A program made the position numbers and the translations under genes. The notes beneath the pieces are model-generated. The model worked only from the letters and a program-made list of their open reading frames with translations, was not told the origin of the DNA and made no database searches. A stretch of DNA of 64,000 nt, from contig CM060985.1 of NCBI GenBank assembly GCA_030765065.1, positions 180,136,996 to 180,200,995 on the forward strand. Direction: 5' to 3'. Positions 16,956-64,000 of the stretch are shown piece after piece. Positions within the stretch are counted from its first letter, which is position 1. Every line of letters starts with the position of its first letter. This DNA is from Deroplatys truncata (taxonomy: Eukaryota > Arthropoda > Insecta > Mantodea > Mantidae).

Positions 16956-16977
16956 ACAGTTTATCCCCTTATTCTCC

Positions 16978-21056: not shown

Positions 21057-21174
21057 AGCCGCATATCATCATCATCATCATCAAGCAACAATTACTTCAT
21101 AAAGCAACTCCACAGAACACTCCGGGCATTATATAACCTCACTTTCATAAGGATTTACCTCGCAAAATTAAACT

Positions 21175-23290: not shown

Positions 23291-23292
23291 AA

Positions 23293-25323: not shown

Positions 25324-25345
25324 ACAGTTTATCCCCTTATATTTA

Positions 25346-40870: not shown

Positions 40871-40912
40871 GTCGGTAATCCATTAGTAGCTATAAGTATG
40901 TCTGCTATATGA

Positions 40913-41117
40913 TGTGGCATGTGCACAGATTATATTAATGGTAATACGCCCTCTGGTTACCGAGTCGAAGGTTGGCAGTTTATCTGAGAGTAGGAGCGAT
41001 TCAGGGGAAGCAGTGTGTCATTGGTAGGGATATGGCGTTAGTGATGCCAAGCTTAGCGTGGGTTTTCTGAGTATTCTGTGACTAGTGTCCGCGGGAGTTA
41101 GACGGATAACTGCGACA
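40913..41117 (+). repeat. 5' LTR
   Basis: It begins TGTGGCA and probably ends ...GCGACA just before the TGG of the primer-binding site, giving about 205 bp. Only the first 194 bp are shared with the right-hand repeat. Confidence 0.65.
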
Positions 41118-41699: not shown

Positions 41700-43673
41700 A
41701 TTGTTTTCTTCCTGAGTCTTTGAGGCGAAAATCTCTCAGTACTTCGTGAACACTTGACTACGCACGAGAAATATCACGACTGAATCCTGCCGCTGTTGTT
41801 AGCCTTGTGAATAAGAATGTCTCTGCTAAATTACAAGTATATTATTATTGTGGGTGTAATTTAAATTTTGAATTATGTTTTGGGAACTGCAAATCATTTG
41901 TTTTGTTGTATTATGCTGCAGGAATGTGTTTCATGTGTACTATATGCTTAATTGAGCTTTCATTTTCAGGAATGTTATGTGACAATCTTGTTTTGAGTAA
42001 TGATGTGATGTTGTTTTGTTGCATTCGATTTGATTTGATATGATTTGACTTGACTCGATTTGATTTTGGGTTTCATAATGATGCTGTGATCTTTATTTGC
42101 AGAAAATTGTTGCATGAATAGTGTTTGTATCTATGTGTGTATTTGAGGTTATGTGATATAGGTGAGATTTGCCTCGGTGGGAGTGCCAAAGTGTAACCCC
42201 GACGGTGTTAATGAGATGAGGAGAGATGAGAAGAGATGAGATGATGTCAGCTTCGGTGGAAGTGCCACAGTGTAACCCCGACAGTTGTCTGATTTCAGAG
42301 ATTTTGCTTATTGGTGTTGCTGTAACGTGCCCAGTATAGCGTGTGTGATGAATTCACACGAGAGATTAAATAGATGGAAGTGAATGTAATGAAAATAATT
42401 TTTTTTTCTGTTTATGCAACAAGTTTATTACCATCTTAGATAGCAAATGTTAATACCACCTGTTTTCCAGCTTAAATTTTCATTTTGAGGATGTAGATGC
42501 AACATTATAATGTCATGTTATTTGTGTAATTCCTGAATCGTTAATGTGATTTCTTGAAGGTTAGGCCTATGTCAGATGTTTTGAATTTACAGCCTGTTAA
42601 ATGAGACACGTAAGTGCAGATGTTTTGTTTTGGAGAGAAAATTGAAAGATGATGATGCTTGAAGTAATGATCGAGATTGCACTATTACTGCTGATGATGT
42701 TGATGATGATTATGATTGCGTTGATGCTAATACTGCGATGACAAAGATAGTGATTGTCTTGTAAGTGCACTTACTTTCTTTTGTTAGTGATACCAGCTGG
42801 TTATTGAGATGTAATATTGGGATCCCAAAATAAGGTTATGTTTCATTTCTGTCATGTTCATGTATTTTGAGTCTGTTTTACTGTTATTTGGATTATGAAG
42901 CATTGTAAGTTACACTTTGGATGGCAACTCTGTAAAATTTCTTTCTTATGCCAATTTGTACTAATTTTTGTTTCTCTTTCTTTGCCCCATGTCATAAGAA
43001 TTCTTTTAGTGTACACTTTTCATACTTTAAAATCTTTCATTGTAAATGACATACCCTTCTTTTATGTGATTGTGGGAGCAGCCTGTTTATTGTGTGGTGG
43101 TTTTGTTTTAGTCTTTCGCTGTGGCAGAGAGCGAGAAAGTGCATCAGCATCCCCAGGGCACACCAGAAGTCAAGAAACACCACAGGGAAGCTGTCGGGCA
43201 GCCACTACACTGCCGTGGCATAAGGAGCCACCATGTCGGGGGGCAGTCCAAGCCAGCGACTGCCCACCCTGTTGTCACCACCAGAGACCTGCGGTGCTAA
43301 TTCTACACCAGGACAAATCGTCGTTGTGGGCACTGTCTAAATCCATCCACAAACAGTTACGGCAGACCATCACCATTTTGCGCAGTGTAGTGTGCCTGTG
43401 AACTGAGGCAGCGTGGTGTGTGCGTGTGCGGGATGCTAAAGATAAGTGCATTAACAATACTAGTCAACAGCACTTACGTCTCTCGTCTCTCGTCATCACC
43501 CAGCACCATTGTTTCGTCGGCTGGGTGCTTACCACACACATGTCTATTGTTATATTTTACTTCCTCACACATTTGTATGTCATTTTTGGTATGTCTTTGT
43601 TTTGTTTTTCATGTTTATTGTATTTATTTTCTTTCTGTCGACGAGGACGTCGACTTCGGTGGCCAGGGGGAGA
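41700..43673. other. LTR-unit interior of unknown content
   Basis: No gag-pol motif is seen on either strand. At 42040-42060 there is a TGATTTGA-rich patch, and at 42171-42288 two copies of a short motif. A plus-strand frame at 42895-43401 contains a hydrophobic run (FFYVIVGAACLLCGGFVLVF) that could be a membrane segment, but it lacks other support. The last 400 bp become GC-richer before the purine tract. Confidence 0.45.
42171..42288 (+). repeat. Two copies of a 37-bp motif, 78 bp apart
   Basis: TCGGTGGGAGTGCCAAAGTG followed by TAACCCCGACGGT, and TCGGTGGAAGTGCCACAGTG followed by TAACCCCGACAGT. The ends TCGG and CCGA are themselves inverted. The spacer is GAGATGA-rich. Function unknown. Confidence 0.7.
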
Positions 43674-43868
43674 TGTGGCATGTGCACAGATTATATTAAT
43701 GGTAATACGCCCTCTGGTTACCGAGTCGAAGGTTGGCAGTTTAATCTGAGAGTAGGAGCGATTCAGGGGAAGCAGTGCGTCATTGGTAGGGATATGGCGT
43801 TAGTGACGCCAAGCTTAGCGTGGGTTTTCTGAGCATTCTGTGACTAGTGTCCGCGGGAGTTAGACGGA
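43674..43868 (+). repeat. 3' LTR, lacking the last ~11 bp
   Basis: It matches the 5' LTR up to TTAGACGGA and then departs; the expected TAACTGCGACA is absent and AGTAGTAATA leads into a foldback element. Either the 3' LTR was trimmed when the foldback or the adjoining array arrived, or the true LTR ends at GACGGA. Confidence 0.7.
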
Positions 43869-43878
43869 AGTAGTAATA

Positions 43879-44028
43879 GTCCCGGATGAGCCAATTGTTT
43901 TTAACGATAATCCTGCCGCTAGGGGCGCTAGTGTCGCTAGTGTCGCTGCGTGCGACGGCGGCGGCGGTAAGTTTGAAAAGCGCCCTGAGCGGTAGGATTA
44001 TCGTTAAATCGGTTGGCTCATCCGGGAC
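43879..44028. mobile_element. 150-bp foldback element
   Basis: GTCCCGGATGAGCCAA...ACGATAATCCTGCCGCT is repeated in inverted orientation at the other end (...GTTGGCTCATCCGGGAC). With the inner GGGCGCT/AGCGCCC the arms reach about 52 bp. The centre is GC-rich (GTCGCTAGTGTCGCTGCGTG, then GCGGCGGCGG). No target duplication is evident. It separates the LTR unit from the tandem array. Confidence 0.75.
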
Positions 44029-44147: not shown

Positions 44148-46622
44148 GGCGAGGTGTTGTCTGTGCGGAGGTCGGTACTGAAAGAGGGGTAAAGATGGGG
44201 AGCGAGGGATAAAAAGTGTAACAGAAAGTGACGTGTGAAGTTGTGATTGGTGGGAGTAAGAAGTGATTTTATTGGTGGAAAGGAACAAATGAGAGTTGTT
44301 GATTGGTAGGAATAAGAGGGATTATGATTGGTGGAAAAGAAAAAGTTGTGGGAGTGGGGTATGTTGGAGGTGATGGGAAAGGTGAGTTTTGCTAGCAGCA
44401 AGATTTGCAAAAGCCTGTCTTGAACTGATCAGCAATTTTTGAACGTCGGATGGTAGTTTTCTTGAGTGGATAGAGAGATGGGGGCGATATGAGATGCGGT
44501 GGCGAAAATGGGAACTAGACAAGGTTGTTGAGACAAGAGGTTTAAGGACGAGGAAATTTGGAGGTTAGTGGTGAACACGGCGGTCGCAAGAGGTGGGGGT
44601 AAGGAGACGCGGTGGTGAGAATGGGAACTAAAAGAAGATGGCGGTAGCAAGAGGTTAGAAGAGTAGATTTTGAGGTTAAAATAGCGGGAACTAAAAATGG
44701 CGGAGGGTCTGCGACAAGGAGATGCGGTGAGAACTAAACAAGATGGCGGACGCAAGAGGTGGGAAAGGAGGTTTGAGGTTACAGTACCAAAACATGAAAG
44801 GATATATTCCTACGCCAAGCAGGTCCGAAAAATAATTATGCGTGTGTTACTTACCTGTTACCGGTGTGGATGCGTCACCAAAAGCGCGGCACGCGACGCG
44901 AAAAAATAAAAGCAAACTGTTTTTGAAAATGCTTAACCAGCTTTAAGATCAACCAACATCACTACGCACTGATATACCTAGGTTTTTAAAGCGGTACAGA
45001 CACCCTTTGCAGAGGCGTAATTTAACTATACCAAAAACCTGGTACTGGACCATCGTGATGGTCGCTAGCGTACGTAGGAGCAGGGTTCTCAAGCCGGTCG
45101 AAAGCGGTCAAAAACGTGTACGACGTAGGTGTTCGCAGTAGCTGCTGTCGAGTCAACCGTCGAGGTGTGAATAAACGAGATCTGTTCTCGCCGGCAATTT
45201 GGTTCGGAGATGTGAGCAGCGGCGAGGTGTTGTCTGTGCGGAGGTCGGGACTGAAAGAGGGAAAAGATGGGGAGCGAGGGATAAAAAGTGTAACAGAAAG
45301 TGACGTGTGAAGTTGTGATTGGTGGGAATAAGAAGTGATTTTATTGGTGGAAAGGAGCAAATGAAAGTTGTTGATTGGTAAGAATAAGAGAGGTTATGAT
45401 TGGTGGAAAGAAAAAGGAGTGGGGTATGTTGGAGGTGATGGGAAAGGTAAGTTTTGCTAGCAACAAGATTTGCAAAAGCCTGTCGTGAACTGATCAGCAA
45501 TTTTTGAACGTTGGATGGTAGTTTTCTTGAGTGGATAGAGAGATGGGGCGATATGAGATGCGGTGGCGAAAATGGGAACTAAACAAGGTGGTTGAGACAA
45601 GAGGTTTAAGGACGAGGAAAGTTGGAGGTTAGTGGTGAACATGGCGGTCGCAAGAGGTGGGGGTAAGGAGATGCGGTGGTGAGAATGGGAACTAAAAGAA
45701 GATGGCGGTAGCAAGAGGTTAGAAGAGTAGATTTTGAGGTTAAAATAGCGGGAACTAAAAATGGCGGAGGGTTTGCGACAAGGAGATGCGGTGAGAACTA
45801 AACAAGATGGCGGACGCAAGAGGAGGGTAAGGAGGTTTGAGGTTACAGTACCAAAACACGAAAGGATATATTCCTACGCCAAGCAGGTCCGAAAAATAAT
45901 TATGCGTGTGTTACTTACCTGTTACCGGTGTGGATGCGTCACCAAAAGCGCGGCACGCGAGGCGGAAAAATAAAAGCAAACTGTTTTTGAAAATGCTTAA
46001 CCAGCTTTAAGATCAACCAACATCACTACGCACTGATATACCTAGGTTTTTAAAGCGGTACAGACACCCTTTGCAGAGGCGTAATTTAACTATACCAAAA
46101 CCTGGTACTGGACCATCGTGATGGTCGCTAGCGTACGTAGGAGCAGGGTTCTCAAGCCGGTCGAAAGCGGTCAAAAACGTGTACGACGTAGGTGTTGGCA
46201 GTAGCTGCTGCCGAGGCAACCGTCGAGGTGCGAATGAACGAGATCTGTTCTTGCAGGCAATCTGGTTGAGAGATGAGAGGCGCGGTGGTAAAAATGTGAA
46301 CTAAATAAGATGGCGGAGGCACGAAGTTGAGGTTAAGGAGCGGCGAGGCGTTGACTGTGCGGCGGTTGGGGTCTGAAAGAGGGGGAAAGATGGCGAACGA
46401 GGGATAAAAAGTATAACAGAAAGTGACGTGTGAAGTTGTGATTGGTGGGAATAAGAAGTGACGTTATTGGTGGAAAGGAACAAATGAAAGTTGCTGATTG
46501 GCGAGAATAAGAGAGATTATGATTGGTGGAAAGAAAAAAGGTGTGGGAGTGGGGTATGTTGGAGGTGATGGAAAAGGTGAGTTTTGCTACCAACAACATT
46601 TGCAAAAGCCTATGCAGAACTC
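44148..46622 (-). repeat. Tandem array of ~1.07-kb promoter-like units
   Basis: The unit start GGCGAGG-GTTGTCTGTGCGG recurs at 44148, 45221 and 46342, giving two full units and a partial third; the first two are more than 90% alike by eye. Read on the minus strand, each unit holds several CCGCCATCTT-type motifs in an AGTTCCC context, then 3-4 CCAAT boxes about 25-30 bp apart, an ACGTCA, and a CTTTTTATCCCTCG TATA-like box. That is the order of a strong promoter. No long ORF follows any of the TATA-like boxes. Confidence 0.8.
44204..44260 (-). promoter_or_regulatory. Promoter-like cassette (CCAAT, ACGTCA, TATA-like), copy 1
   Basis: The plus strand reads GGGATAAAAAG, then TGACGT, then GATTGGTGGG within 57 bp. 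Copies recur at 45276-45332 and 46399-46455, and a homologous cassette lies in both palindrome arms (52441-52497 and mirrored 52961-53017). The spacing between TATA-like box, CRE-like site and CCAAT box is the same in all five. Confidence 0.65.
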
Positions 46623-46639
46623 ATCAGCAATTTTAAATA

Positions 46640-47028: not shown

Positions 47029-47099
47029 ATAGTAGCGTATAAAAAAAAACTGATGTGTTACACTCACATGACTTTCTCTACTCTTGTACAATCTAATTG

Positions 47100-50000
47100 G
47101 TAGCTTTTAAGCGATAGTCAAATATTTTAACGCTGGTTGCTATGTGGCGAATTCCATTCTGTTTGCATGTTCAGGACATAAAAAAAATGAATAAACGAAT
47201 TTGAGAAAAAGTATAAGTATTGGAAAATTTAAGGAAATAACAAGCAATATCTCGAAAACGGTTCCCTCAACAAAAGAAACGTATATGACATAAGTTGTGT
47301 ATTTTAACGCGATCTACATTTTTTGTGTAGTAAAATTTTGTCTATCTCTTATGGTTTACCAGTTATGCAAAAGTCGTTCACAATGAAGAATATTTTTGGA
47401 GACATTCCCAGAAAATTCGAGATATACATTTTATTTGACATGACAATATCTTAAACATATGATGTTTTAATCAAAATCGTTAGAGCCGTTTTTGAGAAAA
47501 TTAAAATTTTCGAAAAATGTTCCATGTAAAGGGTAGTCTGGGGTGGGGGGATTTTCTTGAAAACCTTCATGTCGTATCTCTGGAAGATACTGAACCTAAA
47601 TACCAAGTTTGGTGTTTATCCGACTGTTCGTTTTTGAGTTATGCTGTTCACAGACACACAGACACACAGACAGACACACACACGGACATGTTTCCAAAAA
47701 TGCTTTTTTTTTTTTTTTTTCTGGATTCAGTGATTCTCAAAACATGTATTTCGAGTGAAATCTCGGTATCGAATTTTTGGGTGGAATGCAATACTTCCCC
47801 TACTTACTATACGTAGTAGAGAAAGTAAAAATGAATAACGCATTTGAGAAAAAGTATAAGTATTGGAAAATTTAAAGGAAATAACAAGCAATATCTCGAA
47901 AAACGGTTCACTCAACAAAATAAATGTATATGGCATAAGTTGTGTATTTTAACGCGATCTACATTTTTTGTGTAGCAAACTTTTGTCTATCTCTTACGGT
48001 TTATCAGTTATGAAAAAGTCGTTCACAATGAAGAATTCTTTTGGAGACATTCCCAGAAAATTCGAGATATACATTTCATTTCTCTCGACATTATCTTAAA
48101 TATATGATATTTTCATCAAAATCGTTAGAGCCATTTTTTAATACAAAGAGAACGGGATTTCACAAGTGAAACAGTACTGTGATAACGATACCACTGAAAC
48201 AAAAAAAAAAATCTGATGTGTAACACTCACATGACTTTCTCAACTCTTGTACAAAGTATTTTTACAAACGCTTATTCCCCATCTAGTTCATGTTAATCGA
48301 GATAAACATTTGCAAAATCTATTTTATTGCTAATTTTCTTGTATAAAAAAAAAATCTGATGTGTAACACTCACATGACGTTCTCTACTCTTGTACAAAGT
48401 ATTTTTACAAACGCTTATGCTCCATCTAGTTCATGTTAATCGAGATAAACATTTGCAAACTCTATTTTATTGCTAATTTTCTTGTAGATGTAGGGGAAAA
48501 TATATTTACAAGGGGAATATAGAAAAACAGTAGCCTTTAAGCACATACATATCTCTTAATAGCTGGTTGCTATGTGCAACACCATTCTTTTTGCCACAGA
48601 TTAATACTGTTTGCATATCAAAGACAAAAAAAAATGAATAACGAAGTCCCATTTGAGAAAATAAATATTGGAAAATTAACAAACAATATCTCGAAAACGG
48701 TTCACTCAACAACAAAAATGTATATTACATAAGATGTGTATTTTAACGCGATCTACATTTTTTGTGTAGTAAAATTTTGTCTATCTCTTACGGTTTTTCA
48801 GTTATGAAAAAGACGTTCACAATGAAGAATACTTTTGGAGACATTCCCAGAAAATTCGAGATATACATTTCATTTCTCACGACATTATATTAAACATACG
48901 ATATTTTTCATCAAAATCGTTAGAGCCATTTTTTTTTAATACAAAGAGAACGGGATTTCACAAGTGAAACAGTACTGTGATAACGATACCAACAAAACTA
49001 ATTATTATTCACCCACTGAAACACATAAAAAAAATCTGATGTGTAACACTCACATGACTTTTCTCATCTCTTGTACAAAGTATTTTTACAAACGCTTATT
49101 CCCCATCTAGTTCATGTTAATCGAGATAAACATTTGCAAACTCTGTTTTATTGCTAATTTTGTTGTAGATGTAGGGAAAATATATTTACAAGGGGAATAT
49201 AGAAAAACAGTAGCCTTTAAGCACATACATATCTCTTAATAGCTGGTTGCTATGTGCAACACCATTCTTTTTGCCACAGATTAATACTGTTTGCATATCA
49301 AAGACAAAAAAAAAATGAATAACGAAGTCCCATTTGAGAAAATAAATATTGGAAAATTAACAAACAATATCTCGAAAACGGTTCACTCAACAACAAAAAT
49401 GTATATTACATAAGATGTGTATTTTAACGCGATCTACATTTTTTGTGTAGTAAAATTTTGTCTATCTCTTACGGTTTTTCAGTTATGAAAAAGACGTTCA
49501 CAATGAAGAATACTTTTGGAGACATTCCCAGATAAATTCGAGATATACATTTCATTTCTCACGACATTATATTAAACATACGATATTTTTCATCAAAATC
49601 GTTAGAGCCATTTTTTTTAATACAAAGAGAACGGGATTTCACAAGTGAAACAGTACTGTGATAACGATACCAACAAAACTAATTATTATTCACCCACTGA
49701 AACACATAAAAAAAATCTGATGTGTAACACTCACATGACTTTTCTCATCTCTTGTACAAAGTATTTTTACAAACGCTTATTCCCCATCTAGTTCATGTTA
49801 ATCGAGATAAACATTTGCAAACTCTGTTTTATTGCTAATTTTGTTGTAGATGTAGGGAAAATATATTTACAAGGGGAATATAGAAAAACAGTAGCCTTTA
49901 AGCACATACATATCTCTTAATAGCTGGTTGCTATGTGCAGTACCATTCTTTTTGCCACAGATTAATACTCTTTGCATATCAAAGACAAAAAAAAAATGAA

Positions 50001-50127
50001 TAACGAATTCCCATTTGAGAAAATAACTATTGGAAAATTTAAGTAAATAACAAGCAATATCTCGAAAACGGTTCACTCAACAATAAAGATGTATATGACA
50101 TAAGTTGTGTATTTTAACGCGATCTAC
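47100..50127 (-). repeat. Macrosatellite, five diverged 0.65-0.8-kb units (left arm)
   Basis: The landmark CGCGATCTACATTTTTTG and its flanks recur at 47308, 47953, 48747, 49428 and (truncated) 50118, spaced 645, 794, 681 and 690 bp. Units 3 and 4 are almost identical. A 138-bp sub-duplication sits at 48208-48486, and unit 1 carries the CACACAGACACA block known from 13867-14095. Short frames in the units are not conserved as protein. The part from about 47536 is mirrored at 61398-63991. Confidence 0.8.
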
Positions 50128-50589
50128 ATACTTTCGTACTCACCTATAAGATATAGAGGGTAGAGGTCGTACGAACGTAGCACTTTGAGAATCTATATTC
50201 AACAGTTGGTGTTACTCCTTAGAAAGGAAGTATCTGCTGATTTTTATTTAATTCTTTACATTTTACATAACACGTATGCACTGGCACAGCACAAAAGCAC
50301 TACACACAATACTCAGTTTTAATATTTGCACTAATAACATCAGGAATAACTGAAGTCTGCAAACAGTCATTTCCCATGGGCAGCCTTACGTACAGAAAAC
50401 GTGTGTGGCTGATCTATGCGTAAAAAGAGCCTGAGAGCGGATGTACGTCAGCGGTAAAATCTTTTAAATGCATTTTTATTGGCGATGGTAGAAAACGTGC
50501 AGTGGTGGATCGTGAAAATTCATATAAATGGATGTATCACCTCATAATAAGCCTCTATATACCAAGAATATTGAGTTTTTAAAAAGTCA
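50128..50589 (+). other. Unique 462-bp segment of the left arm
   Basis: It lies between the macrosatellite and the 76-bp array and is mirrored exactly at 60936-61397. No ORF, TIR or known repeat is recognised. It starts with a CTCACCTATAAG donor-like word next to the truncated fifth satellite unit. Confidence 0.5.
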
Positions 50590-52152
50590 GCAACTGTACC
50601 TGTGTTTCTATACGTGAACGTCAGATGGCAGCTTCGATACGTGTCCACGGAGACCTTAGTGCTAGGCAACTGTACCTCTGTTTCTATACGTGAACGGCAG
50701 ATTGCAGCTTCGATACGTGTCCACGGAGACCTTAGTGCTAGGCAACTGTACCTCTGTTTCTATACGTGAACGGCAGATTGCAGCTTCGATACGTGTCCAC
50801 GGAGACCTTAGTGCTAGGCAACTGCACCTCTGTTTCTATACGTGAACGGCAGATTGCAGCTTCGATACGTGTCCACGGAGACCTTAGCGCTAGGCAACTG
50901 CACCTCTGTTTCTATACGTGAACGGCAGATTGCAGCTTCGATACGTGTCCACGGAGACCTTAGTGCTAGGCAACTGTACCTCTGTTTCTATACGTGAACG
51001 GCAGATTGCAGCTTCGATACGTGTCCACGGAGACCTTAGTGCTAGGCAACTGTACCTCTGTTTGTATACGTGAACGGCAGATTGCAGCTTCGATACGTGT
51101 CCACGGAGACCTTAGTGCTAGGCAACTGCACCTCTGTTTCTATACGTGAACGGCAGATTGCAGCTTCGATACGTATCCACGGAGACCTTAGTGCTAGGCA
51201 ACTGCACCTCTGTTTCTATACGTGAACGGCAGATTGCAGCTTCAATACGTGTCCACGGAGACCTTAGTGCTAGGCAACTGTACCTCTGTTTCTATACGTG
51301 AACGGGAGATTGCAGCTTCGATACGTGTCCACGGAGACCTTAGTGCTAGGCAACTGCACCTCTGTTTCTATACGTGAACGTCAAATTGCAGCTTCGATAC
51401 GTGTCCACGGAGACCTTAGTGCTAGGCAACTGCACCTCTGTTTCTATACGTGAACGGCAGATTGCAGCTTCGATACGTATCCACGGGGACCTTAGTGCTA
51501 GGGAACTGCACCTCTGTTTGTATACGTGAACGGCAGATTGCAGCTTCAATACGTGTACACGGAGACCTTAGTGCTAGGCAGCTGTACCTCTGTTTCTATA
51601 CGTGAACGGCAGATTGCAGCTTCGATACGTGTCCACGGAGATCTTAGTGCTAGGCAGCTATACCTGTTTCTATACGTGAACGTCAGATTGCAGCTTCGAT
51701 ACGTGTTCACGGAGACCTTAGTGCTAGGCAACTGTACCTGTGTTTCTATACGTGTCCACGGAGACCTTAGTGCTAGACAACTGTACCTCTGTTTCTATAC
51801 GTGAACGGCAGATTGCAGCTTCAATACGTGTCCACGGAGACCTTAGTGCTAGTGCTAGGCAACTATACCTCTGTTTCTATACGTGAACGGCAGATTGCAG
51901 GTTCGATACGTGTCCACGGAGATCTTAGTGCTAGGCAACTATACCTGTTTCTATACGTGAACGGCAGATTGCAGCTTCGATACGTGTCCACGGAGACCTT
52001 AGTGCTAGGCAACTGTACCTGTGTTTCTATACGTGAACGTCAGATGGCAGCTTCGATACGTGTCCACGGAGACCTTAGTGTTAGGCAACTGTACCTCTGT
52101 TTCTATACGTGAACGGCAGATTGCAGCTTCGATACGTGTCCACGGAGACCTT
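50590..52152 (+). repeat. 76-bp tandem array, about 20 units (left arm)
   Basis: The unit contains CTATACGTGAACGGCAGATT, GCAGCTTCGATACGTGTCCA and CGGAGACCTTAGTGCTAGGC, then AACTGTACCTCTGTT. The period is 76 bp, with a few shortened units of 73 bp or less near 51650-51780 and one small internal gain (AGTGCT) near 51850. Most units differ by 1-4 bases. Two ATACGTG words 28 bp apart occur in each unit. It is mirrored at 53306-53359 plus 59415-60935. Confidence 0.95.
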
Positions 52153-52715
52153 TCGCTTCAGGTGACAAAATAACACTAGGCACTTGTGTGCCGTGGTGTA
52201 AGCCGCAATCACGGTATTGGTAGCGTGGATCTCCTTGGGGCTCTCCTCGGAGTTACCTCAACACCACGTACATGACCTGGTTCGTCACGGGTACGCAGGT
52301 CTGCACTACCACTTCCTCGGCGTTGAGCAGGCCCAGGAGGCGATCGTACCGGTACACCAGCTAGCACGTGGACATGTTATCGCGCGGTGGTGTTGCGTGT
52401 GCGAGGTATGGAAACTCAAGGACGCAAAACATGCACGACCGAGGGTTAAAAAGCAGAACAAGTAGTGACGTGGAGCGTTGTGATTGGTGTAAATAAGACG
52501 ATCTCTGATAGGTGGACAAATTGAAATAACGTGATGTGATAGGCGAAAATAAAATCAAAGGTGATTGGATGAAAAATGACGAGAAGGAATTAGCGGTGAA
52601 TTTGTGAACTAAGATGGCGAAGATTTTTTTTTTTTTTAAAAAAAAGGATAATATAAGTACGGCAACTGTAACGGTTTACGGCAAACGCGCGCCGCGCAAT
52701 GCGTCACGCCGGGCA
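52153..52715 (-). promoter_or_regulatory. Palindrome core with outward promoter-like cassette (left)
   Basis: Read outward (minus strand) from the centre: GC-rich CGCGGCGCGCG, a CGCCATCTTAGTTCACA motif, CCAAT boxes mirrored to 52890-52894 and 52971-52975, ACGTCA, a CTTTTTAACCCTCGG TATA-like box, then an ATG. The 57-bp stretch 52441-52497 aligns with the cassette repeated at 44-46 kb at roughly 80% identity by eye. An identical copy faces the other way at 52743-53305, so the centre looks like a bidirectional promoter. This is inference from motifs only. Confidence 0.55.
52253..52432 (-). CDS. Small ORF with in-frame TAG, left arm copy
   Basis: Exact mirror of 53026-53205: ATG, 23 codons, TAG, 35 further codons in the same frame, then TAA. 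See the right-arm entry for its features. Confidence 0.3.
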
Positions 52716-52742
52716 TCTTGCTCAATATGATTTTTGTTTTAT
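52716..52742. other. 27-bp asymmetric spacer at the palindrome centre
   Basis: TCTTGCTCAATATGATTTTT followed by GTTTTAT is the only non-mirrored sequence between the arms. The arms close on CGCGGCGCGCG/CGCGCGCCGCG stretches. Such a short spacer would allow a long stem with a small loop in RNA or single-stranded DNA. Confidence 0.9.
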
Positions 52743-53025
52743 TGCCCGGCGTGACGCATTGCGCGGCGCGCGTTTGCCGTAAACCGTTACAGTTGCCGTA
52801 CTTATATTATCCTTTTTTTTAAAAAAAAAAAAAATCTTCGCCATCTTAGTTCACAAATTCACCGCTAATTCCTTCTCGTCATTTTTCATCCAATCACCTT
52901 TGATTTTATTTTCGCCTATCACATCACGTTATTTCAATTTGTCCACCTATCAGAGATCGTCTTATTTACACCAATCACAACGCTCCACGTCACTACTTGT
53001 TCTGCTTTTTAACCCTCGGTCGTGC

Positions 53026-53205
53026 ATGTTTTGCGTCCTTGAGTTTCCATACCTCGCACACGCAACACCACCGCGCGATAACATGTCCACGTGCTAGCTG
53101 GTGTACCGGTACGATCGCCTCCTGGGCCTGCTCAACGCCGAGGAAGTGGTAGTGCAGACCTGCGTACCCGTGACGAACCAGGTCATGTACGTGGTGTTGA
53201 GGTAA
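53026..53205 (+). CDS. Small ORF with in-frame TAG, right arm copy
   Basis: The ATG lies about 15 bp after the TATA-like box. The first 23 codons (MFCVLEFPYLAHATPPRDNM...) end at TAG (53095-53097, context TGC TAG CTG). The same frame then continues for 35 codons (LVYRYDRLLGLLNAEEVVVQ...VVLR) to TAA. In the second part about 31 of 35 third positions are G or C, in a region otherwise AT-rich, which is the signature of real coding DNA. Stop readthrough, an acceptor at the CTAG, or a decayed exon could explain it. I do not recognise the peptide. Confidence 0.35.
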
Positions 53206-53996
53206 CTCCGAGGAGAGCCCCAAGGAGATCCACGCTACCAATACCGTGATTGCGGCTTACACCACGGCACACAAGTGCCTAGTGTTATTTTGTCACCTGA
53301 AGCGAAAGGTCTCCGTGGACACGTATCGAAGCTGCAATCTGCCGTTCACGTATAGAAACCCCCTCAGGGGCTCACCTTATGTGAGTACGGGTTTTTGGCG
53401 CACCCGGGGGTTCCCGAGCCACTCATCGCCACATTCATCCTCTCACCCCCATCCGGTCGAGGTGGGTTCTTCTCGTGACCGGTGGACCCAAGGTAGGCTC
53501 TCGTGCGTTCTTTGCATTCCATCCATACCGCACCTCACCATCGTTTCTTTCTTCCCTTATCACTTTCCGGCCATTTCGCACCACGACATTCGCATATCTC
53601 TCTTTTTCTTCCCCGCCGGCCTACCTTGCGTGCGAAACGCCCACACAGTTTTAGTTTCTTTTATCTTTTTATTTAACTCCTCCGTGGACACAGCCTGACG
53701 GATACCCGCGCACCGCGTGCGCAGCTGGGTGAGTGGGTAATGGCGTCATCCCCACCACCCGGGGTCGTCATGTAGGGTTGTTGTTCGTATCCGCTGTTCA
53801 ACTGCAGTCCCGCGGGGGGGCCATTGCATGAGCTGCTGGCTTCCGACGGCGATTGGGTCCCTCTGTCTATGTTCTGGGAGGTGTGACCCTGGGGTGAGCT
53901 AGGTATAGATAGGCCACTCACCCAAGCCGGGGTAACGCCCGGGAAGTCAGAGCCCGAGGTCGGAGACGGTTGCAATGGTGGAGGATTTTTTTCGCT

Positions 53997-55286
53997 ATGG
54001 AGCACCCTTTCTCCATTGTTAACAACAAGCGCCGCAAAGTTTTTGTAACAGAAGTAGCACCGCCAACAGCTGGTTGTTACTTAGTGATTACCCGTACAGA
54101 GGAGGGACAATCATTCGAGAAGGTGAACCCTTTTATTATCCAGAAGGGCATTGACTCAATTGCTGGTCCGGTTCTTTCCTGCACTCGTCTTCGTAATGGT
54201 TCGTTGCTAGTTCAAAGCAAATCCGAGGCACAAAGTATGTCCTTGTTGAGCGCCACGCTTCTCCACGGTTATCCTATCCGTGTTGAGAAGCACCGCACCT
54301 TGAATTCTTGTAGAGGCGTTGTCACCACGCATAGCCTCGATGGTATCTCTGACGAAGCCCTGGTGGAATATCTTGCAGACCAGAGGGTGACAGCGGTTCA
54401 TCGAGTGCAGGCCAAACGCGACGGCGTGTTGGTACCCACTCGTACCCTGTTTATTACCTTTGATGGCGTCGATCTGCCCACGAGCATTTCCGCAGGGTAC
54501 GAACGGATTTCTGTGAGGCCTTATATTCCTAGACCTCTGCGTTGTTTTAAATGCCAACGTTTTGGGCATACGCAAGTCTCATGTAAGAGTGCCGTTAACA
54601 TCTGTGCAACCTGTAGCCAGCCCTCACACGAAGGTACCTGTTCAACAGCCCCCGTCTGCGTTAATTGTAAAGGGTCTCATTCTGCTTCGTTTGCCGACTG
54701 TCCGCGGTACTTGGACGAGAAGGCGATCCAGGAGATCCGGGTAAAGGAAAAACTCTCCTTCGCTGAAGCCCGGAGGCGTTACCATGCGCGCCAACCTTCA
54801 CTCCTGCGATCTGGCACATTTAGTTCTGTTGTTGCCTCGCCAGTACCACGCGTAGATGCCGAAACTCAAACCTGGACCTTGACTGGATTAACCGCCACTA
54901 CCATCCGGCCGTCTATTAAGGCTACAGTTACCAAGCCGTATAAACCTGGTCCCAAGTCAATGAAGTCGCAAGCCGTTGAAAAGAAGCCCAAGCAGAAACT
55001 ACGTAGGGAAGATTTTTTGAAAGACCCTCCGCGTGCGCGCGGTAAGAAAAGTTCACCTTCTCCTCCTCGGAGGTCGCTGTCCCAGGAAGGTCCTGGGACA
55101 AGCCGCGCTCAGCGGCACCCTTCACCCATCGCCACCCAGAACCGATTCACGGCGCTTGAATCGGTTTCTGGCACTGAGCGCGTGGGCCCTCCCTCCGAGG
55201 AAGCTATGGAGTCTGACCAACTCCATACAAAAAGCCCGAGCCCAAAGGTTAAACAAAAGGTAATTTTAAGCCGCCCTTCTAAGTAG
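53997..55286 (+). CDS. LINE ORF1 protein, gag-like (copy J)
   Basis: 429 aa with three intact zinc knuckles. The first ~135 residues differ noticeably from E and H (MEHPFSIVNNKRRKVFVTEV, GPVLSCTRLRNGSLLVQSKS), whereas the remainder is almost identical. The change is abrupt near residue 140, which suggests recombination between subfamilies. Stop to ORF2 start is 20 bp here, against 22 bp in E and H, so ORF2 is in a different relative frame. Confidence 0.93.
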   Translation: MEHPFSIVNNKRRKVFVTEVAPPTAGCYLVITRTEEGQSFEKVNPFIIQKGIDSIAGPVLSCTRLRNGSLLVQSKSEAQSMSLLSATLLHGYPIRVEKHRTLNSCRGVVTTHSLDGISDEALVEYLADQRVTAVHRVQAKRDGVLVPTRTLFITFDGVDLPTSISAGYERISVRPYIPRPLRCFKCQRFGHTQVSCKSAVNICATCSQPSHEGTCSTAPVCVNCKGSHSASFADCPRYLDEKAIQEIRVKEKLSFAEARRRYHARQPSLLRSGTFSSVVASPVPRVDAETQTWTLTGLTATTIRPSIKATVTKPYKPGPKSMKSQAVEKKPKQKLRREDFLKDPPRARGKKSSPSPPRRSLSQEGPGTSRAQRHPSPIATQNRFTALESVSGTERVGPPSEEAMESDQLHTKSPSPKVKQKVILSRPSK

Positions 55287-55306
55287 ACAGTTTATCCCTT
55301 TTATTC

Positions 55307-58300
55307 ATGGCTATCCTGAGCTGGAATGTACGTGGTGTACGATCGCATAGGGCGGAACTGCAACTTTTATTGCGTTCCCATTCACCTATGGTCGTGTGTT
55401 TGCAGGAGACCAAGCTTCGCCCTCACGACCCTTTCGATCTCCGAGGGTACACTCCGGTTCGCTATGATCTTGAACCGGAGGAGGGTGCTCCTGCTCATGG
55501 AGGTGTCATGTTGTTGGTGCGTAATGACGTTCATTTTCAGCCTATCACACTTACGTCCGACTTGCAAACTGTTGCCATTAGACTGCAGTTACCCGGTTTT
55601 TTCTTTTCTGTTTGTTCTGTGTATACACCTCCATCGTCTCCCCTCGCTCCCGCGGACATTCGATCTCTCCTGTCCGCTCTCCCAACACCATTTCTTCTGT
55701 TGGGAGATTTTAATGCCCATCACCCACTATGGGGTTCGCCAAGGGCTTGTGCGAGGGGAACTCTTCTTTCCGACATTTTTTATCAGTTCAATCTTTCCAT
55801 CCTCAATACAGGTGCACCTACTTTTATTTCTGATTCTTCTGGTACATTCTCTCACCTGGACCTTGCGATTTGCTCAATCCAGCTTGCACGTCGTCTTCAG
55901 TGGAACGTCGTCGCTGACACCTACTCCAGCGACCATTTCCCCTGCATCGTTTCTCTTCTGTCGCACCACGTACAGCATTCCAGAGTACCTACCTGGATGT
56001 TCGCAAAAGCCGACTGGAGCTTGTATTCCAGCCTCGTGCATTTTGACGACCAGCCCTTCTCCGACATTAATCAACTAGTGCAGCACCTTACGTCTATTAT
56101 TTTCTCAGCCGCCGAACGTGCAATACCCCGTTCATCCTCCCAACCTCGGCGGCCACCTGTTCCATGGTGGAACGAGGATTGTCGGGACGCCGTTCGTGCC
56201 CGTAGGACTGCACTTAGGGTGTTTCGGCGCCACCCTACACTTGATAATTTGGTGACTTTTAAACAATCGCGCGCCAGGGCTCGTCGTATTATTCAGGATA
56301 GCAAGAAGGCATCTTGGGCTCGTTTTGTCGAGTCTTTTAATCGTTTTACGCCTTCATCCGTTGTTTGGGATAAACTTCGTCGCTTCTCAGGTAAAGTGTC
56401 ACATTGTACTGTTTCTGGCCTTCAGGTTTCTAATGCCACCATAGTGGATCCGGCTGCCATCGCTAACACTCTGGGTTCTGCCTTTGAGGCGGTTTCCAGT
56501 TCAGACCATTATTCCGCCGGCTTTCGCTCTATCCAAGACCGGCTGGATTTCGACACCCTTAATTTTCGGTCTGCTAATAATGAGTGTTATAATGAACTTT
56601 TCACACTGAGGGAGCTGGAGCACGCTCTTAATTGCTCTAGGCACTCCGCTCCTGGCCCGGACGGCATTCATGTCCTGATGTTAAAGCACCTTTCAGCCGA
56701 CAGTAAACTCTTTCTCTTACAGGTCTATAACCGTATTTGGCAAAACGGCATTTTTCCTTCCGTTTGGCGCGAAGCCACCATTGTCCCTATACTTAAGCCT
56801 GGGAAGGATCGCCAACTACCTTCCAGCTACCGCCCTATCTCCCTCACCAGTTGCATTTGCAAGGTGATGGAGCGCATGATCAACGGGCGGTTGACATGGT
56901 GGCTTGAGTCTCAGAAACTTCTAGCGAACGCTCAGTGCGGGTTTCGTCGCTATCGCTCTACCGTCGACCATCTGGTGTCCTTGTCGACGCATATTATGAA
57001 TGGATTTCTGAGAAAGTGTCAAACCGTGGCTGTATTTTTTGACCTGGAGAAAGCTTATGACACTTGTTGGAGGGGCGGCATTTTACGTACACTTCACGAT
57101 TGGAATATCCGCGGTCGTCTTCCCATATTTCTTCGGGAGTTTATGACGGACCGCGTCTTTCGTGTACGTGTGGGCTCGGTTTTATCTCGTCGTTTTATTC
57201 AAGAGAACGGAGTACCGCAGGGCTCTGTACTCAGTGTCACACTTTTTGCGATTGCTATCAACCCCATTGTTGATTGTATTCCACCTGGCATTTCATCGTC
57301 CCTTTTTGTTGACGATTTCGCTATTTATTGTAGTTCACGGCGGACCTGTCTACTCGAACGCCGTCTCCAGAGCTGTATCGACCGTCTCTACGCCTGGAGT
57401 AACGCCAACGGCTTTAATTTCTCCGCCGAGAAATCCGTCTGCATCAACTTTTGGCGCCGGAAGTATTTCCCTCCGCCCTCTCTCCATCTTGGGCCAGGGA
57501 TCCTTCCGTTTGCAGACGAGGCGAAATTTTTGGGGTTGATTTTTGACAGGAAGTTGTGTTGGACCTCGCACGTTTCCTTTTTAAAAGCAAAGTGTGACCG
57601 TTCTCTTAATATTTTACGTGTTTTAAGTGGCACATCTTGGGGAGCTGATCGGACCGTCCTTCTTCGTCTCTATCGCTCTTTGGTCCGATCCAAGCTTGAT
57701 TACGGGTGTATTGTTTATTCGTCGGCACGTCCATCTGTGTTACGTCGATTGAATGCCATTCACCATCGTGGCATAAGAGTCGCTACAGGGGCCTTTCCAA
57801 CTAGCCCTGTACCCAGTCTGTACGCAGAAGCTGCAGAGCCTCCGCTGTCCTTCCGGCGTGAGATGCTTTTGTGCAGCTATGCTTGTCGACTCTCAAGCTT
57901 GCCTAACCACCCGTCCTTCGATGTATTTTACGAGGATTCGCTTGATCGCCAATATTTTGTTAGCTCCTCTGCATTGCTCCCTCCAGGGGTTCGATTTCGA
58001 CTGCTACTTCGGCATTTGGACGTTACGCCAGCGCCGGCCCTTACCCGAGGGGAAACGTGCTTTCCTCCATGGTCGCGCGCTGAGGCCCACATCCACTTTG
58101 GGCTAACGTCGATGCCGAAGAATGCGACCCCTGCTTCAGTCTTTAGATCCGCATTTTTAGAACTTCAGGCAACATTCGGTGACTGTAATTTTATTTATAC
58201 TGATGGATCTAAGACTGATGTTGGAGTAGGATGTGCCTTTGTTTTAGGTGCGAATAGTTTTACTTTTCGTTTACCCGGGCAATGTTCGATTTATACCGCC

Positions 58301-58996
58301 GAACTTTTTAGTATCTATCAATGTGTTTTATACATTCAGCGGCATGTTTTACGGCGTTGTGTTATTTGTTCGGACTCTCTGAGTGCCCTTCAGAGTATTA
58401 ACGCGCTGTACTCTTACCACCCCCTCGTACAGCGCATTCATGACCTGCTCCATTCGCTGGGTGCCTCTGGCATCAGCGTCTCTTTTATGTGGATTCCAGG
58501 TCATGTGGGTATCTCAGGGAATGAGTCGGCCGACGCCGCTGCGAAATCGGCGATTTTATTACCCAGATTTTTTACTTCTGTTGTTCCCTCGTCAGATTCG
58601 TGTGTCATTTTACGTCGCCGTATCCTCTCGCGCTGGCGCGATGAGTGGACGGCCCTCCGGGGGAACAAGTTGCGGGAGGTTAAACCTCTTCCGCTAGTCT
58701 GGGCTACCTCTTCCCGTGCTTCTCGTCGGGAAGAGGTACTTTTAACACGCCTTCGTATCGGACATTGCCTTTTTAGTCATAGATACCTGTTAAGTGGTGA
58801 TCCCGCACCTGTGTGTGGTCAGTGTGACGTGCCCTTAACGGTCCGTCACATTTTAACCGAGTGTCAAGTTTTAGCTCCACTGCGCGTTCGCGTGGGTCTG
58901 CCTGTTGGCCTAGCCAACGTGTTGGCAGACGACGCGCATGCTGTAGAATGTCTTTTACGTTTTATCACTGACATTGGTTTTAGCCGTCGCATTTGA
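55307..58996 (+). CDS. LINE ORF2 protein: APE endonuclease, RT, RNase H (copy J)
   Basis: 1229 aa without stops or shifts, with all endonuclease, RT (FVDD) and RNase H motifs present. Diverged patches lie near residues 80-105 (VHFQPITLTSDLQTVAIRLQ), 408-440 (IQDRLDFDTLNFRSANNECY) and 930-1030 (RNase H). The C-terminus is FITDIGFSRRI where other copies have FIHDSDFNLRI. Between these patches it is nearly identical to E and H. Potentially functional as judged from the sequence. Confidence 0.95.
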   Translation: MAILSWNVRGVRSHRAELQLLLRSHSPMVVCLQETKLRPHDPFDLRGYTPVRYDLEPEEGAPAHGGVMLLVRNDVHFQPITLTSDLQTVAIRLQLPGFFFSVCSVYTPPSSPLAPADIRSLLSALPTPFLLLGDFNAHHPLWGSPRACARGTLLSDIFYQFNLSILNTGAPTFISDSSGTFSHLDLAICSIQLARRLQWNVVADTYSSDHFPCIVSLLSHHVQHSRVPTWMFAKADWSLYSSLVHFDDQPFSDINQLVQHLTSIIFSAAERAIPRSSSQPRRPPVPWWNEDCRDAVRARRTALRVFRRHPTLDNLVTFKQSRARARRIIQDSKKASWARFVESFNRFTPSSVVWDKLRRFSGKVSHCTVSGLQVSNATIVDPAAIANTLGSAFEAVSSSDHYSAGFRSIQDRLDFDTLNFRSANNECYNELFTLRELEHALNCSRHSAPGPDGIHVLMLKHLSADSKLFLLQVYNRIWQNGIFPSVWREATIVPILKPGKDRQLPSSYRPISLTSCICKVMERMINGRLTWWLESQKLLANAQCGFRRYRSTVDHLVSLSTHIMNGFLRKCQTVAVFFDLEKAYDTCWRGGILRTLHDWNIRGRLPIFLREFMTDRVFRVRVGSVLSRRFIQENGVPQGSVLSVTLFAIAINPIVDCIPPGISSSLFVDDFAIYCSSRRTCLLERRLQSCIDRLYAWSNANGFNFSAEKSVCINFWRRKYFPPPSLHLGPGILPFADEAKFLGLIFDRKLCWTSHVSFLKAKCDRSLNILRVLSGTSWGADRTVLLRLYRSLVRSKLDYGCIVYSSARPSVLRRLNAIHHRGIRVATGAFPTSPVPSLYAEAAEPPLSFRREMLLCSYACRLSSLPNHPSFDVFYEDSLDRQYFVSSSALLPPGVRFRLLLRHLDVTPAPALTRGETCFPPWSRAEAHIHFGLTSMPKNATPASVFRSAFLELQATFGDCNFIYTDGSKTDVGVGCAFVLGANSFTFRLPGQCSIYTAELFSIYQCVLYIQRHVLRRCVICSDSLSALQSINALYSYHPLVQRIHDLLHSLGASGISVSFMWIPGHVGISGNESADAAAKSAILLPRFFTSVVPSSDSCVILRRRILSRWRDEWTALRGNKLREVKPLPLVWATSSRASRREEVLLTRLRIGHCLFSHRYLLSGDPAPVCGQCDVPLTVRHILTECQVLAPLRVRVGLPVGLANVLADDAHAVECLLRFITDIGFSRRI

Positions 58997-60935
58997 TGCG
59001 CTGAGCGCCTTTTAGCTGTTTGATTTTATATTGTTAGTTTAATGGGGCCCTTCTCCCCAGACATAAGGCGCTCATGTTCCTTATATTCTACAGTTCTTGA
59101 CACGTTTTATTCTTTTAGTGACCATGATTTTAGTGTGTTGGTTTTTTTTAGATATTTGTATTGTTATTTTGTTGTTATTGATATTGTTGTTATTGTTTTT
59201 ATTGTTGTTATTGTTATTATTGTTATTGTGGTTATTCTTATTGTTATTGTTATATTATTGTTATTTTAGCCTTTTTAGACATCGCGGGTTTCTGTCCCGT
59301 TTTTTAATTATGCGGTAATTTTATCCTTTTGACTTTATCTTTTATACATTGTAAGGGCGCTGATGACCTTAGTAGTTTAGCGCCCTTAAACCGCATCTCA
59401 TCATCATCATCATCACGTATAGAAACAGAGGTACAGTTGCCTAACACTAAGGTCTCCGTGGACACGTATCGAAGCTGCCATCTGACGTTCACGTATAGAA
59501 ACACAGGTACAGTTGCCTAGCACTAAGGTCTCCGTGGACACGTATCGAAGCTGCAATCTGCCGTTCACGTATAGAAACAGGTATAGTTGCCTAGCACTAA
59601 GATCTCCGTGGACACGTATCGAACCTGCAATCTGCCGTTCACGTATAGAAACAGAGGTATAGTTGCCTAGCACTAGCACTAAGGTCTCCGTGGACACGTA
59701 TTGAAGCTGCAATCTGCCGTTCACGTATAGAAACAGAGGTACAGTTGTCTAGCACTAAGGTCTCCGTGGACACGTATAGAAACACAGGTACAGTTGCCTA
59801 GCACTAAGGTCTCCGTGAACACGTATCGAAGCTGCAATCTGACGTTCACGTATAGAAACAGGTATAGCTGCCTAGCACTAAGATCTCCGTGGACACGTAT
59901 CGAAGCTGCAATCTGCCGTTCACGTATAGAAACAGAGGTACAGCTGCCTAGCACTAAGGTCTCCGTGTACACGTATTGAAGCTGCAATCTGCCGTTCACG
60001 TATACAAACAGAGGTGCAGTTCCCTAGCACTAAGGTCCCCGTGGATACGTATCGAAGCTGCAATCTGCCGTTCACGTATAGAAACAGAGGTGCAGTTGCC
60101 TAGCACTAAGGTCTCCGTGGACACGTATCGAAGCTGCAATTTGACGTTCACGTATAGAAACAGAGGTGCAGTTGCCTAGCACTAAGGTCTCCGTGGACAC
60201 GTATCGAAGCTGCAATCTCCCGTTCACGTATAGAAACAGAGGTACAGTTGCCTAGCACTAAGGTCTCCGTGGACACGTATTGAAGCTGCAATCTGCCGTT
60301 CACGTATAGAAACAGAGGTGCAGTTGCCTAGCACTAAGGTCTCCGTGGATACGTATCGAAGCTGCAATCTGCCGTTCACGTATAGAAACAGAGGTGCAGT
60401 TGCCTAGCACTAAGGTCTCCGTGGACACGTATCGAAGCTGCAATCTGCCGTTCACGTATACAAACAGAGGTACAGTTGCCTAGCACTAAGGTCTCCGTGG
60501 ACACGTATCGAAGCTGCAATCTGCCGTTCACGTATAGAAACAGAGGTACAGTTGCCTAGCACTAAGGTCTCCGTGGACACGTATCGAAGCTGCAATCTGC
60601 CGTTCACGTATAGAAACAGAGGTGCAGTTGCCTAGCGCTAAGGTCTCCGTGGACACGTATCGAAGCTGCAATCTGCCGTTCACGTATAGAAACAGAGGTG
60701 CAGTTGCCTAGCACTAAGGTCTCCGTGGACACGTATCGAAGCTGCAATCTGCCGTTCACGTATAGAAACAGAGGTACAGTTGCCTAGCACTAAGGTCTCC
60801 GTGGACACGTATCGAAGCTGCAATCTGCCGTTCACGTATAGAAACAGAGGTACAGTTGCCTAGCACTAAGGTCTCCGTGGACACGTATCGAAGCTGCCAT
60901 CTGACGTTCACGTATAGAAACACAGGTACAGTTGC

Positions 60936-61397
60936 TGACTTTTTAAAAACTCAATATTCTTGGTATATAGAGGCTTATTATGAGGTGATACATCCATTTA
61001 TATGAATTTTCACGATCCACCACTGCACGTTTTCTACCATCGCCAATAAAAATGCATTTAAAAGATTTTACCGCTGACGTACATCCGCTCTCAGGCTCTT
61101 TTTACGCATAGATCAGCCACACACGTTTTCTGTACGTAAGGCTGCCCATGGGAAATGACTGTTTGCAGACTTCAGTTATTCCTGATGTTATTAGTGCAAA
61201 TATTAAAACTGAGTATTGTGTGTAGTGCTTTTGTGCTGTGCCAGTGCATACGTGTTATGTAAAATGTAAAGAATTAAATAAAAATCAGCAGATACTTCCT
61301 TTCTAAGGAGTAACACCAACTGTTGAATATAGATTCTCAAAGTGCTACGTTCGTACGACCTCTACCCTCTATATCTTATAGGTGAGTACGAAAGTAT
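60936..61397 (-). other. Unique 462-bp segment of the right arm
   Basis: Mirror copy of 50128-50589. No recognisable gene or repeat. Confidence 0.5.
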
Positions 61398-64000
61398 GTA
61401 GATCGCGTTAAAATACACAACTTATGTCATATACATCTTTATTGTTGAGTGAACCGTTTTCGAGATATTGCTTGTTATTTACTTAAATTTTCCAATAGTT
61501 ATTTTCTCAAATGGGAATTCGTTATTCATTTTTTTTTTGTCTTTGATATGCAAAGAGTATTAATCTGTGGCAAAAAGAATGGTACTGCACATAGCAACCA
61601 GCTATTAAGAGATATGTATGTGCTTAAAGGCTACTGTTTTTCTATATTCCCCTTGTAAATATATTTTCCCTACATCTACAACAAAATTAGCAATAAAACA
61701 GAGTTTGCAAATGTTTATCTCGATTAACATGAACTAGATGGGGAATAAGCGTTTGTAAAAATACTTTGTACAAGAGATGAGAAAAGTCATGTGAGTGTTA
61801 CACATCAGATTTTTTTTATGTGTTTCAGTGGGTGAATAATAATTAGTTTTGTTGGTATCGTTATCACAGTACTGTTTCACTTGTGAAATCCCGTTCTCTT
61901 TGTATTAAAAAAAATGGCTCTAACGATTTTGATGAAAAATATCGTATGTTTAATATAATGTCGTGAGAAATGAAATGTATATCTCGAATTTATCTGGGAA
62001 TGTCTCCAAAAGTATTCTTCATTGTGAACGTCTTTTTCATAACTGAAAAACCGTAAGAGATAGACAAAATTTTACTACACAAAAAATGTAGATCGCGTTA
62101 AAATACACATCTTATGTAATATACATTTTTGTTGTTGAGTGAACCGTTTTCGAGATATTGTTTGTTAATTTTCCAATATTTATTTTCTCAAATGGGACTT
62201 CGTTATTCATTTTTTTTTTGTCTTTGATATGCAAACAGTATTAATCTGTGGCAAAAAGAATGGTGTTGCACATAGCAACCAGCTATTAAGAGATATGTAT
62301 GTGCTTAAAGGCTACTGTTTTTCTATATTCCCCTTGTAAATATATTTTCCCTACATCTACAACAAAATTAGCAATAAAACAGAGTTTGCAAATGTTTATC
62401 TCGATTAACATGAACTAGATGGGGAATAAGCGTTTGTAAAAATACTTTGTACAAGAGATGAGAAAAGTCATGTGAGTGTTACACATCAGATTTTTTTTAT
62501 GTGTTTCAGTGGGTGAATAATAATTAGTTTTGTTGGTATCGTTATCACAGTACTGTTTCACTTGTGAAATCCCGTTCTCTTTGTATTAAAAAAAAATGGC
62601 TCTAACGATTTTGATGAAAAATATCGTATGTTTAATATAATGTCGTGAGAAATGAAATGTATATCTCGAATTTTCTGGGAATGTCTCCAAAAGTATTCTT
62701 CATTGTGAACGTCTTTTTCATAACTGAAAAACCGTAAGAGATAGACAAAATTTTACTACACAAAAAATGTAGATCGCGTTAAAATACACATCTTATGTAA
62801 TATACATTTTTGTTGTTGAGTGAACCGTTTTCGAGATATTGTTTGTTAATTTTCCAATATTTATTTTCTCAAATGGGACTTCGTTATTCATTTTTTTTTG
62901 TCTTTGATATGCAAACAGTATTAATCTGTGGCAAAAAGAATGGTGTTGCACATAGCAACCAGCTATTAAGAGATATGTATGTGCTTAAAGGCTACTGTTT
63001 TTCTATATTCCCCTTGTAAATATATTTTCCCCTACATCTACAAGAAAATTAGCAATAAAATAGAGTTTGCAAATGTTTATCTCGATTAACATGAACTAGA
63101 TGGAGCATAAGCGTTTGTAAAAATACTTTGTACAAGAGTAGAGAACGTCATGTGAGTGTTACACATCAGATTTTTTTTTTATACAAGAAAATTAGCAATA
63201 AAATAGATTTTGCAAATGTTTATCTCGATTAACATGAACTAGATGGGGAATAAGCGTTTGTAAAAATACTTTGTACAAGAGTTGAGAAAGTCATGTGAGT
63301 GTTACACATCAGATTTTTTTTTTTGTTTCAGTGGTATCGTTATCACAGTACTGTTTCACTTGTGAAATCCCGTTCTCTTTGTATTAAAAAATGGCTCTAA
63401 CGATTTTGATGAAAATATCATATATTTAAGATAATGTCGAGAGAAATGAAATGTATATCTCGAATTTTCTGGGAATGTCTCCAAAAGAATTCTTCATTGT
63501 GAACGACTTTTTCATAACTGATAAACCGTAAGAGATAGACAAAAGTTTGCTACACAAAAAATGTAGATCGCGTTAAAATACACAACTTATGCCATATACA
63601 TTTATTTTGTTGAGTGAACCGTTTTTCGAGATATTGCTTGTTATTTCCTTTAAATTTTCCAATACTTATACTTTTTCTCAAATGCGTTATTCATTTTTAC
63701 TTTCTCTACTACGTATAGTAAGTAGGGGAAGTATTGCATTCCACCCAAAAATTCGATACCGAGATTTCACTCGAAATACATGTTTTGAGAATCACTGAAT
63801 CCAGAAAAAAAAAAAAAAAAAAAGCATTTTTGGAAACATGTCCGTGTGTGTGTCTGTCTGTGTGTCTGTGTGTCTGTGAACAGCATAACTCAAAAACGAA
63901 CAGTCGGATAAACACCAAACTTGGTATTTAGGTTCAGTATCTTCCAGAGATACGACATGAAGGTTTTCAAGAAAATCCCCCCACCCCAGACTAACCCCTT
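61398..64000 (+). repeat. Macrosatellite of the right arm (cut by window end)
   Basis: Mirror of 47525-50127, with units in the opposite order. The A tract at 63805-63823 is 19 long against 17 T in the left arm. The last bases (CTAACCCCTT) differ slightly from the mirrored left-arm bases. Confidence 0.85.

Follow-up and report, generated by a model that had tools for sequence, protein, structure and literature searches.

A near-perfect palindrome with 5.2-kb arms, probably a recent inverted duplication among repeats

Introduction

How has a near-perfect palindrome with arms exceeding 5 kb arisen in DNA filled with repeats, and is it a mobile element, a chromosomal rearrangement or a product of sequencing and assembly? 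The question is raised by a locus lying in a 64-kb stretch of DNA that we analyzed as a whole, and which we call the window. The original prediction left three options, namely a new foldback-type element, a chromosomal inverted duplication and a head-to-head join of two haplotypes. Of these the chromosomal inverted duplication proves the best supported, given the identity of the arms, an insertion present in one arm only and a left end located within a dispersed repeat. From the arrangement of the sequence we favor an inverted duplication that is young, interstitial and set in repeat-rich DNA, with a probability of about 0.6. The event is likeliest a fresh instance of a striking but known type of rearrangement. 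Among the titles and abstract openings that our literature searches listed, none matches this palindrome.

Two near-identical arms facing across a short spacer

Direct comparison reveals a near-perfect palindrome (Table 1). Its left arm measures 5182 bp; the right, which is divided into two parts, measures 5184 bp. Two near-identical facing arms of at least 5.18 kb had been predicted, together with a spacer of 27 bp, and both are borne out. Counted from the center, the arms are an exact inverse match for the first 5012 bp. There follows their sole difference, a poly-T tract at 47704 that has 17 versus 19 bases, and beyond this a further 170 bp match exactly, reaching 47534 in the left arm and 63993 in the right one. 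Thus there are 0 substitutions between the arms over 5182 bp. If a later insertion is subtracted, the length of the palindrome is 10,393 bp. Folded as single-stranded DNA, the central 341 nt form one hairpin (−208 kcal/mol, compared with a mean of −43.5 for shuffled sequences; z = −42), and 0 of 100 shuffles were equally good. The palindrome is far beyond chance.

Table 1. Positions of the palindrome, the layers of its left arm and the retrotransposon within the window
Feature	Position	Strand	Remarks
Left arm	47534..52715	+	Uninterrupted, 5182 bp; exact inverse match 5012 bp + 170 bp
Spacer, center	52716..52742	.	27 bp, non-palindromic, asymmetric
Right arm, inner part	52743..53359	-	Arm-to-arm match
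Right arm, outer part	59427..63993	-	Arm-to-arm match; 7 bp left to window end
Left core	52153..52715	+	Partly similar to 1.07-kb direct repeats
76-bp satellite array	50590..52152	+	1563 bp, about 20.6 units
About 460-bp segment	50130..50589	+	Unmatched in window outside palindrome
Macrosatellite	47534..50129	+	Spacing of copies about 680 bp; made of dispersed repeat family F
Further macrosatellite/F sequence	47037..47533	+	Outside palindrome, continuous with left arm
Non-LTR retrotransposon	53360..59412	+	6053 bp, splits right arm; frames 457 aa + 1237 aa
Target-site duplication, 5′ copy	53346..53359	+	14 bp, identical to 59413-59426
Target-site duplication, 3′ copy	59413..59426	+	14 bp

Layered structure of the arms

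Each arm had been described as a core followed outwards by about 20 repeats of 76 bp, a segment of about 460 bp and a macrosatellite, and the coordinates agree with this layering. In the 76-bp array, TRF finds 15.4 units at 95% matches and an overlapping run of 5.3 units. Fourteen units taken in register have pairwise identities of 89–100% (mean 96%), and only 3 of the 91 pairs are identical. Between units the differences therefore reach 10.5%, yet the array is identical in register from arm to arm, which indicates that the whole arm was copied as one block rather than amplified twice. The segment of about 460 bp has no second match within the window outside the palindrome (E up to 1e-3).

The core is related to sequence lying outside the palindrome. 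The region 52370-52516 is 71–79% similar to 1.07-kb direct repeats at 44148-46634, in pieces of 63–149 bp and in the same orientation. The local alignments score 58, 79 and 72, of which the last extends to 52552; the maximum score in 100 single-base shuffles, made against the second repeat unit only, was 38. The motif ATTGG, the inverse of CCAAT, is found on the + strand only in this core part and in the 1.07-kb repeats (12 versus 0; 3 versus 0), as is GATGGCG (6 versus 0; 1 versus 0). Over the whole window the counts on the + and − strands are 54 versus 30 for ATTGG and 11 versus 2 for GATGGCG. A promoter-like cassette had been proposed for the core. The CCAAT- and TATA-like words are indeed there, while the label promoter-like is drawn from those words alone and the function is putative. 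It might be imagined that promoter-like cassette, 76-bp satellite and macrosatellite together define large palindromes of a new class, mobile or self-propagating, that always come as inverted pairs whose ends are fixed, but we consider this very unlikely.

The ends of the arms and the foldback transposons

The left arm ends inside a dispersed repeat, family F. A diverged copy of F at 13021-13269 aligns in one piece with 47405-47652 (78.3% identity), running colinearly across the arm end at 47534 with 102 of 129 positions identical before it (79.1%) and 91 of 117 after it (77.8%). Since this copy passes through the end with similar identity on both sides, the left end does not look like the terminus of a transposon. 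To the right of 63993 only 7 bp lie within the window, and in an ungapped comparison four of the seven mismatch the mirrored left flank. This is compatible with a boundary, but one substitution together with one indel would fit too, and 7 bp are too few to establish that the arm stops there.

These ends bear on whether the palindrome might be a foldback DNA transposon resembling FB or Galileo, with very long satellite-bearing inverted ends. As described for Galileo, a member of the P superfamily, and for FB, such elements share with our palindrome kilobase inverted arms, internal tandem repeats, little sequence in the middle and the presence of inserted elements (PMC4168063). In D. willistoni, Galileo copy 112 reportedly spans 9021 bp; its arms, 4246 and 4680 bp long, hold other inserted elements as well as tandem repeats of about 140 bp, and the copy is flanked by identical target-site duplications (PMC4168063). 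On that description a real transposon can resemble this palindrome closely, and the arms here are likewise kilobase inverted repeats that contain tandem repeats. The target-site duplications of Galileo are 7–8 bp in length. There is also an old inverted pair of family F elsewhere in the window, at 11285-14098.

In contrast to Galileo and FB, however, the outer end of the left arm does not look like an element end and lies within another repeat family, and a target-site duplication is unreadable in the window. The end motif of the F pair faces outwards, whereas within the palindrome the F end motif points to the center, so that the palindrome is not itself an F element; a target-site duplication was sought for the pair and none was found. 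The absence of a transposase had been noted, and it holds for the frames scanned against Pfam (sets of 10 and 8), in which no transposase family is present. In the first set three of the 10 frames match Pfam families, all three retrotransposon ones. The seven palindrome frames scanned give four weak sub-threshold Pfam matches only, in two frames located within the satellite or on its margin, none being to a transposase. With its left end in F and no transposase in the scanned frames, the foldback-type element is disfavored, and we regard it as improbable.

A retrotransposon in one arm only

A non-LTR retrotransposon, which had no place in the reasoning of the original prediction, splits the right arm. 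The target-site duplication on its two sides has the 14-bp sequence TCACGTATAGAAAC. In the left arm the empty site is preserved, the 14-mer being present once in register at the mirrored position 52099-52112 (reverse strand). This 14-mer is a piece of the 76-bp repeat and has 18 occurrences in the left arm; because it recurs in the array, the empty site is identified by the arm-to-arm register and not by the 14-mer itself. Since the left arm has kept its empty site, the order of events can be read as duplication first and retrotransposon second.

Palindromic artefacts of long-read sequencing share near-perfect arms and a short or absent spacer with the structure described here (PMC12870357, PMC6218980), but our arms differ by a 6053-bp insertion that has a target-site duplication. 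Foldback artefacts are frequent in certain long-read data. As reported, they make up about 0.55–0.6% of ONT genomic reads and virtually none of PacBio HiFi reads (PMC12870357), and palindromes were present in 40–50% of reads from amplified Arabidopsis samples compared with 0.5% in the unamplified control (PMC6218980). One folded molecule would yield arms of equal content, with the 6-kb insertion in both or in neither. The retrotransposon is in one arm only, which argues against an artefact copied from a single molecule. Even if the palindrome should not be real, such one-arm-only content offers a simple test, made within the sequence, against the one-molecule foldback artefact, although not against haplotype misjoins.

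In a misjoin of that kind, foldback artefact reads at the center would have connected two haplotypes, one of them by its reverse strand, the retrotransposon being heterozygous. A second allele, with one substitution and one indel, might then explain the four mismatched bases past the right arm. Yet the two haplotypes would need to have acquired 0 substitutions in 5182 bp despite differing by a 6-kb insertion. The Poisson chance of this is 0.0056 at a heterozygosity of 0.1% and 3e-5 at 0.2%, though larger if the source was inbred, and there are 0 N bases in the window. A misjoin is in our judgment unlikely, while deserving to be taken seriously; it is the improbable identity of the haplotypes, combined with the 6-kb difference, that leads us to weight duplication above it.

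On mammalian Y chromosomes the arms of palindromes are homogenized by gene conversion. An old origin, with conversion between the arms preserving their identity, would be consistent with the lack of substitutions, beside related repeats in the window that are about 70–90% identical. However, the retrotransposon has been neither removed from the right arm nor copied into the left, and we find such a history extremely unlikely. Age and conversion as such cannot be separated from this sequence.

Origin of the palindrome

We return to the young inverted duplication as the preferred reading. Fold-back priming or template switching is inferred both from the product and from published cases. A DNA end or stalled fork would have folded onto itself at a short inverted repeat beside the spacer, and synthesis would then have copied the sequence lying outward (the 76-bp array, the unique segment and the macrosatellite) inversely for about 5.2 kb. 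A second switch or joining near 63993 may have ended the copying. Later, the (TCA)n-tailed non-LTR retrotransposon would have entered the 76-bp array of the right arm, at a site starting TCA. The likeness of the arms would reflect a recent event, or its maintenance by gene conversion.

Comparable products have been described. Junctions of ODIRA in yeast have inverted repeats of 5–6 bp interrupted by 40–80 bp (PMC10766186), and a reported inverted duplication has at its center imperfect repeats of 11 bp separated by a 6-bp spacer (PMC10622511). Such events can thus be expected to produce palindromes with short spacers. In common with fold-back inversion and ODIRA as described in these sources, the structure has near-identical inverse arms, a short asymmetric spacer and arbitrary contents, with no requirement for a terminus motif (PMC10622511, PMC10766186). 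It differs in that it is known from assembled sequence alone, is located in satellite DNA and has a later insertion in one arm, and in that neither the priming repeat nor the second junction is visible. Long palindromes are reported to be unstable in every setting into which they have been introduced, and to be uncommon in natural genomes (PMC10766186), so that a stable germline case is less likely a priori.

If it is real, the palindrome is a fresh natural inverted duplication that carries its own time mark, in the form of an insertion into one arm only. It would then be useful in studying how perfect 5-kb palindromes persist in the germline.

Some features of the geometry may be noted separately. 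Near-identical arms and a short spacer, the combination looked for in an inverted duplication, are both found. Against this reading, the spacer of 27 bp falls between the lengths in the two published cases, exceeding the 6 bp of the fold-back duplication and lying outside the 40–80 bp of ODIRA. The window also breaks off at the right boundary, so that the arm is only presumably finite.

Other candidates at the center

The core frames scanned give no indication of a protein family. No match to Pfam was obtained at E 1 for the 87-aa frame at 52202-52465, for which the protein search also gave no candidate, and the four core frames scanned have 0 Pfam families at E 1. A known RNA in the core was considered and rejected. 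There are 0 Rfam matches at the gathering level in the whole window, and seven of the eight sub-threshold matches are to microRNA or sRNA families at the center (E from 0.00031). All fall below their gathering scores, and a perfect hairpin can produce such matches. No tRNA genes were found in the search.

Repeats of 76 bp lying near a perfect hairpin invite comparison with the hairpin telomeres of poxviruses. A dimer junction of such telomeres was rejected; the outer arms consist of repeats that are found elsewhere in the window, and the scanned frames contain no viral gene. A search of viral contigs gave 0 exact-pattern matches to the 76-bp repeat or the core, and the five short telomere repeat pairs checked occur 0 times in the window.

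The retrotransposon and its relatives

The 1237-aa frame of the retrotransposon contains endonuclease, reverse transcriptase and RNase H domains (Pfam PF14529/PF03372, PF00078 and PF00075). One CCHC knuckle is matched in the 457-aa frame, which has no Pfam match, and the 3′ end of the element is (TCA)n. Two further copies of the same length are present in the window, at 15028-21080 (93.0% identical) and 23398-29450 (93.5%). In a protein search with the 1237-aa frame, 565 of 7987 scored candidates matched at E up to 0.001. The 120 best of these 565 include four proteins from the sea spider Nymphon striatum and one from a shrimp nimavirus, a weak hint that the DNA comes from an arthropod; the rest of the 120, with the second-listed match among them, carry no species label. 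The first-listed match is from N. striatum, with 43% identity over 78% of the query, and the second-listed has 47% identity over 99%.

Head-to-tail copies of the non-LTR retrotransposon

Pieces of a single non-LTR retrotransposon, the 6053-bp element with a (TCA)n tail, lie head-to-tail in 1-10676 and 22060-32851. Throughout the window all matches to the element longer than 150 bp (11 of 11) are on the + strand. Four copies fall within 1-10676, the first of which is cut by the start of the window, and they meet at three junctions (1527, 3896 and 7191). At each of these the (TCA)n tail of the preceding copy ends no more than 1 bp from the start of the next, 5′-truncated copy. It is possible that this layout arose by new copies inserting into the tails of older ones. 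The retrotransposon arrays of Drosophila telomeres are similar in layout.

For two of the copies, at 15028 and 53360, the duplicated target site starts with TCA; no such duplication is seen for the copy at 23398. At the start of this last copy the first 105 bp of the element are doubled in tandem (23293-23502).

Other repeats

Positions of the other repeats in the window
Feature	Position	Identity	Remarks
Inverted pair of family F, old	11285-14098		Termini ACTTTCTC...GAGAAAGT; pair broken up by other sequence
Direct repeat pair	40911-41106 and 43672-43868	98%	
Self-complementary stretch, 150 bp	43879-44028	72%	Next to repeat 43672-43868
Direct repeats, ~1.07 kb	44148-46634	95.7%	Plus partial third copy

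A target-site duplication was sought for the inverted pair of family F, the dispersed family that builds the macrosatellite of the palindrome arms, and none was found. Judged from its sequence, the direct repeat pair has the appearance of LTR retrotransposon ends, with a purine-rich tract preceding the second repeat. The neighbouring self-complementary stretch resembles a small inverted-repeat element. In the 1.07-kb direct repeats the words ATTGG and GATGGCG are biased to one strand, and the palindrome core (52153-52715, the innermost layer of the left arm) is distantly similar to these repeats.
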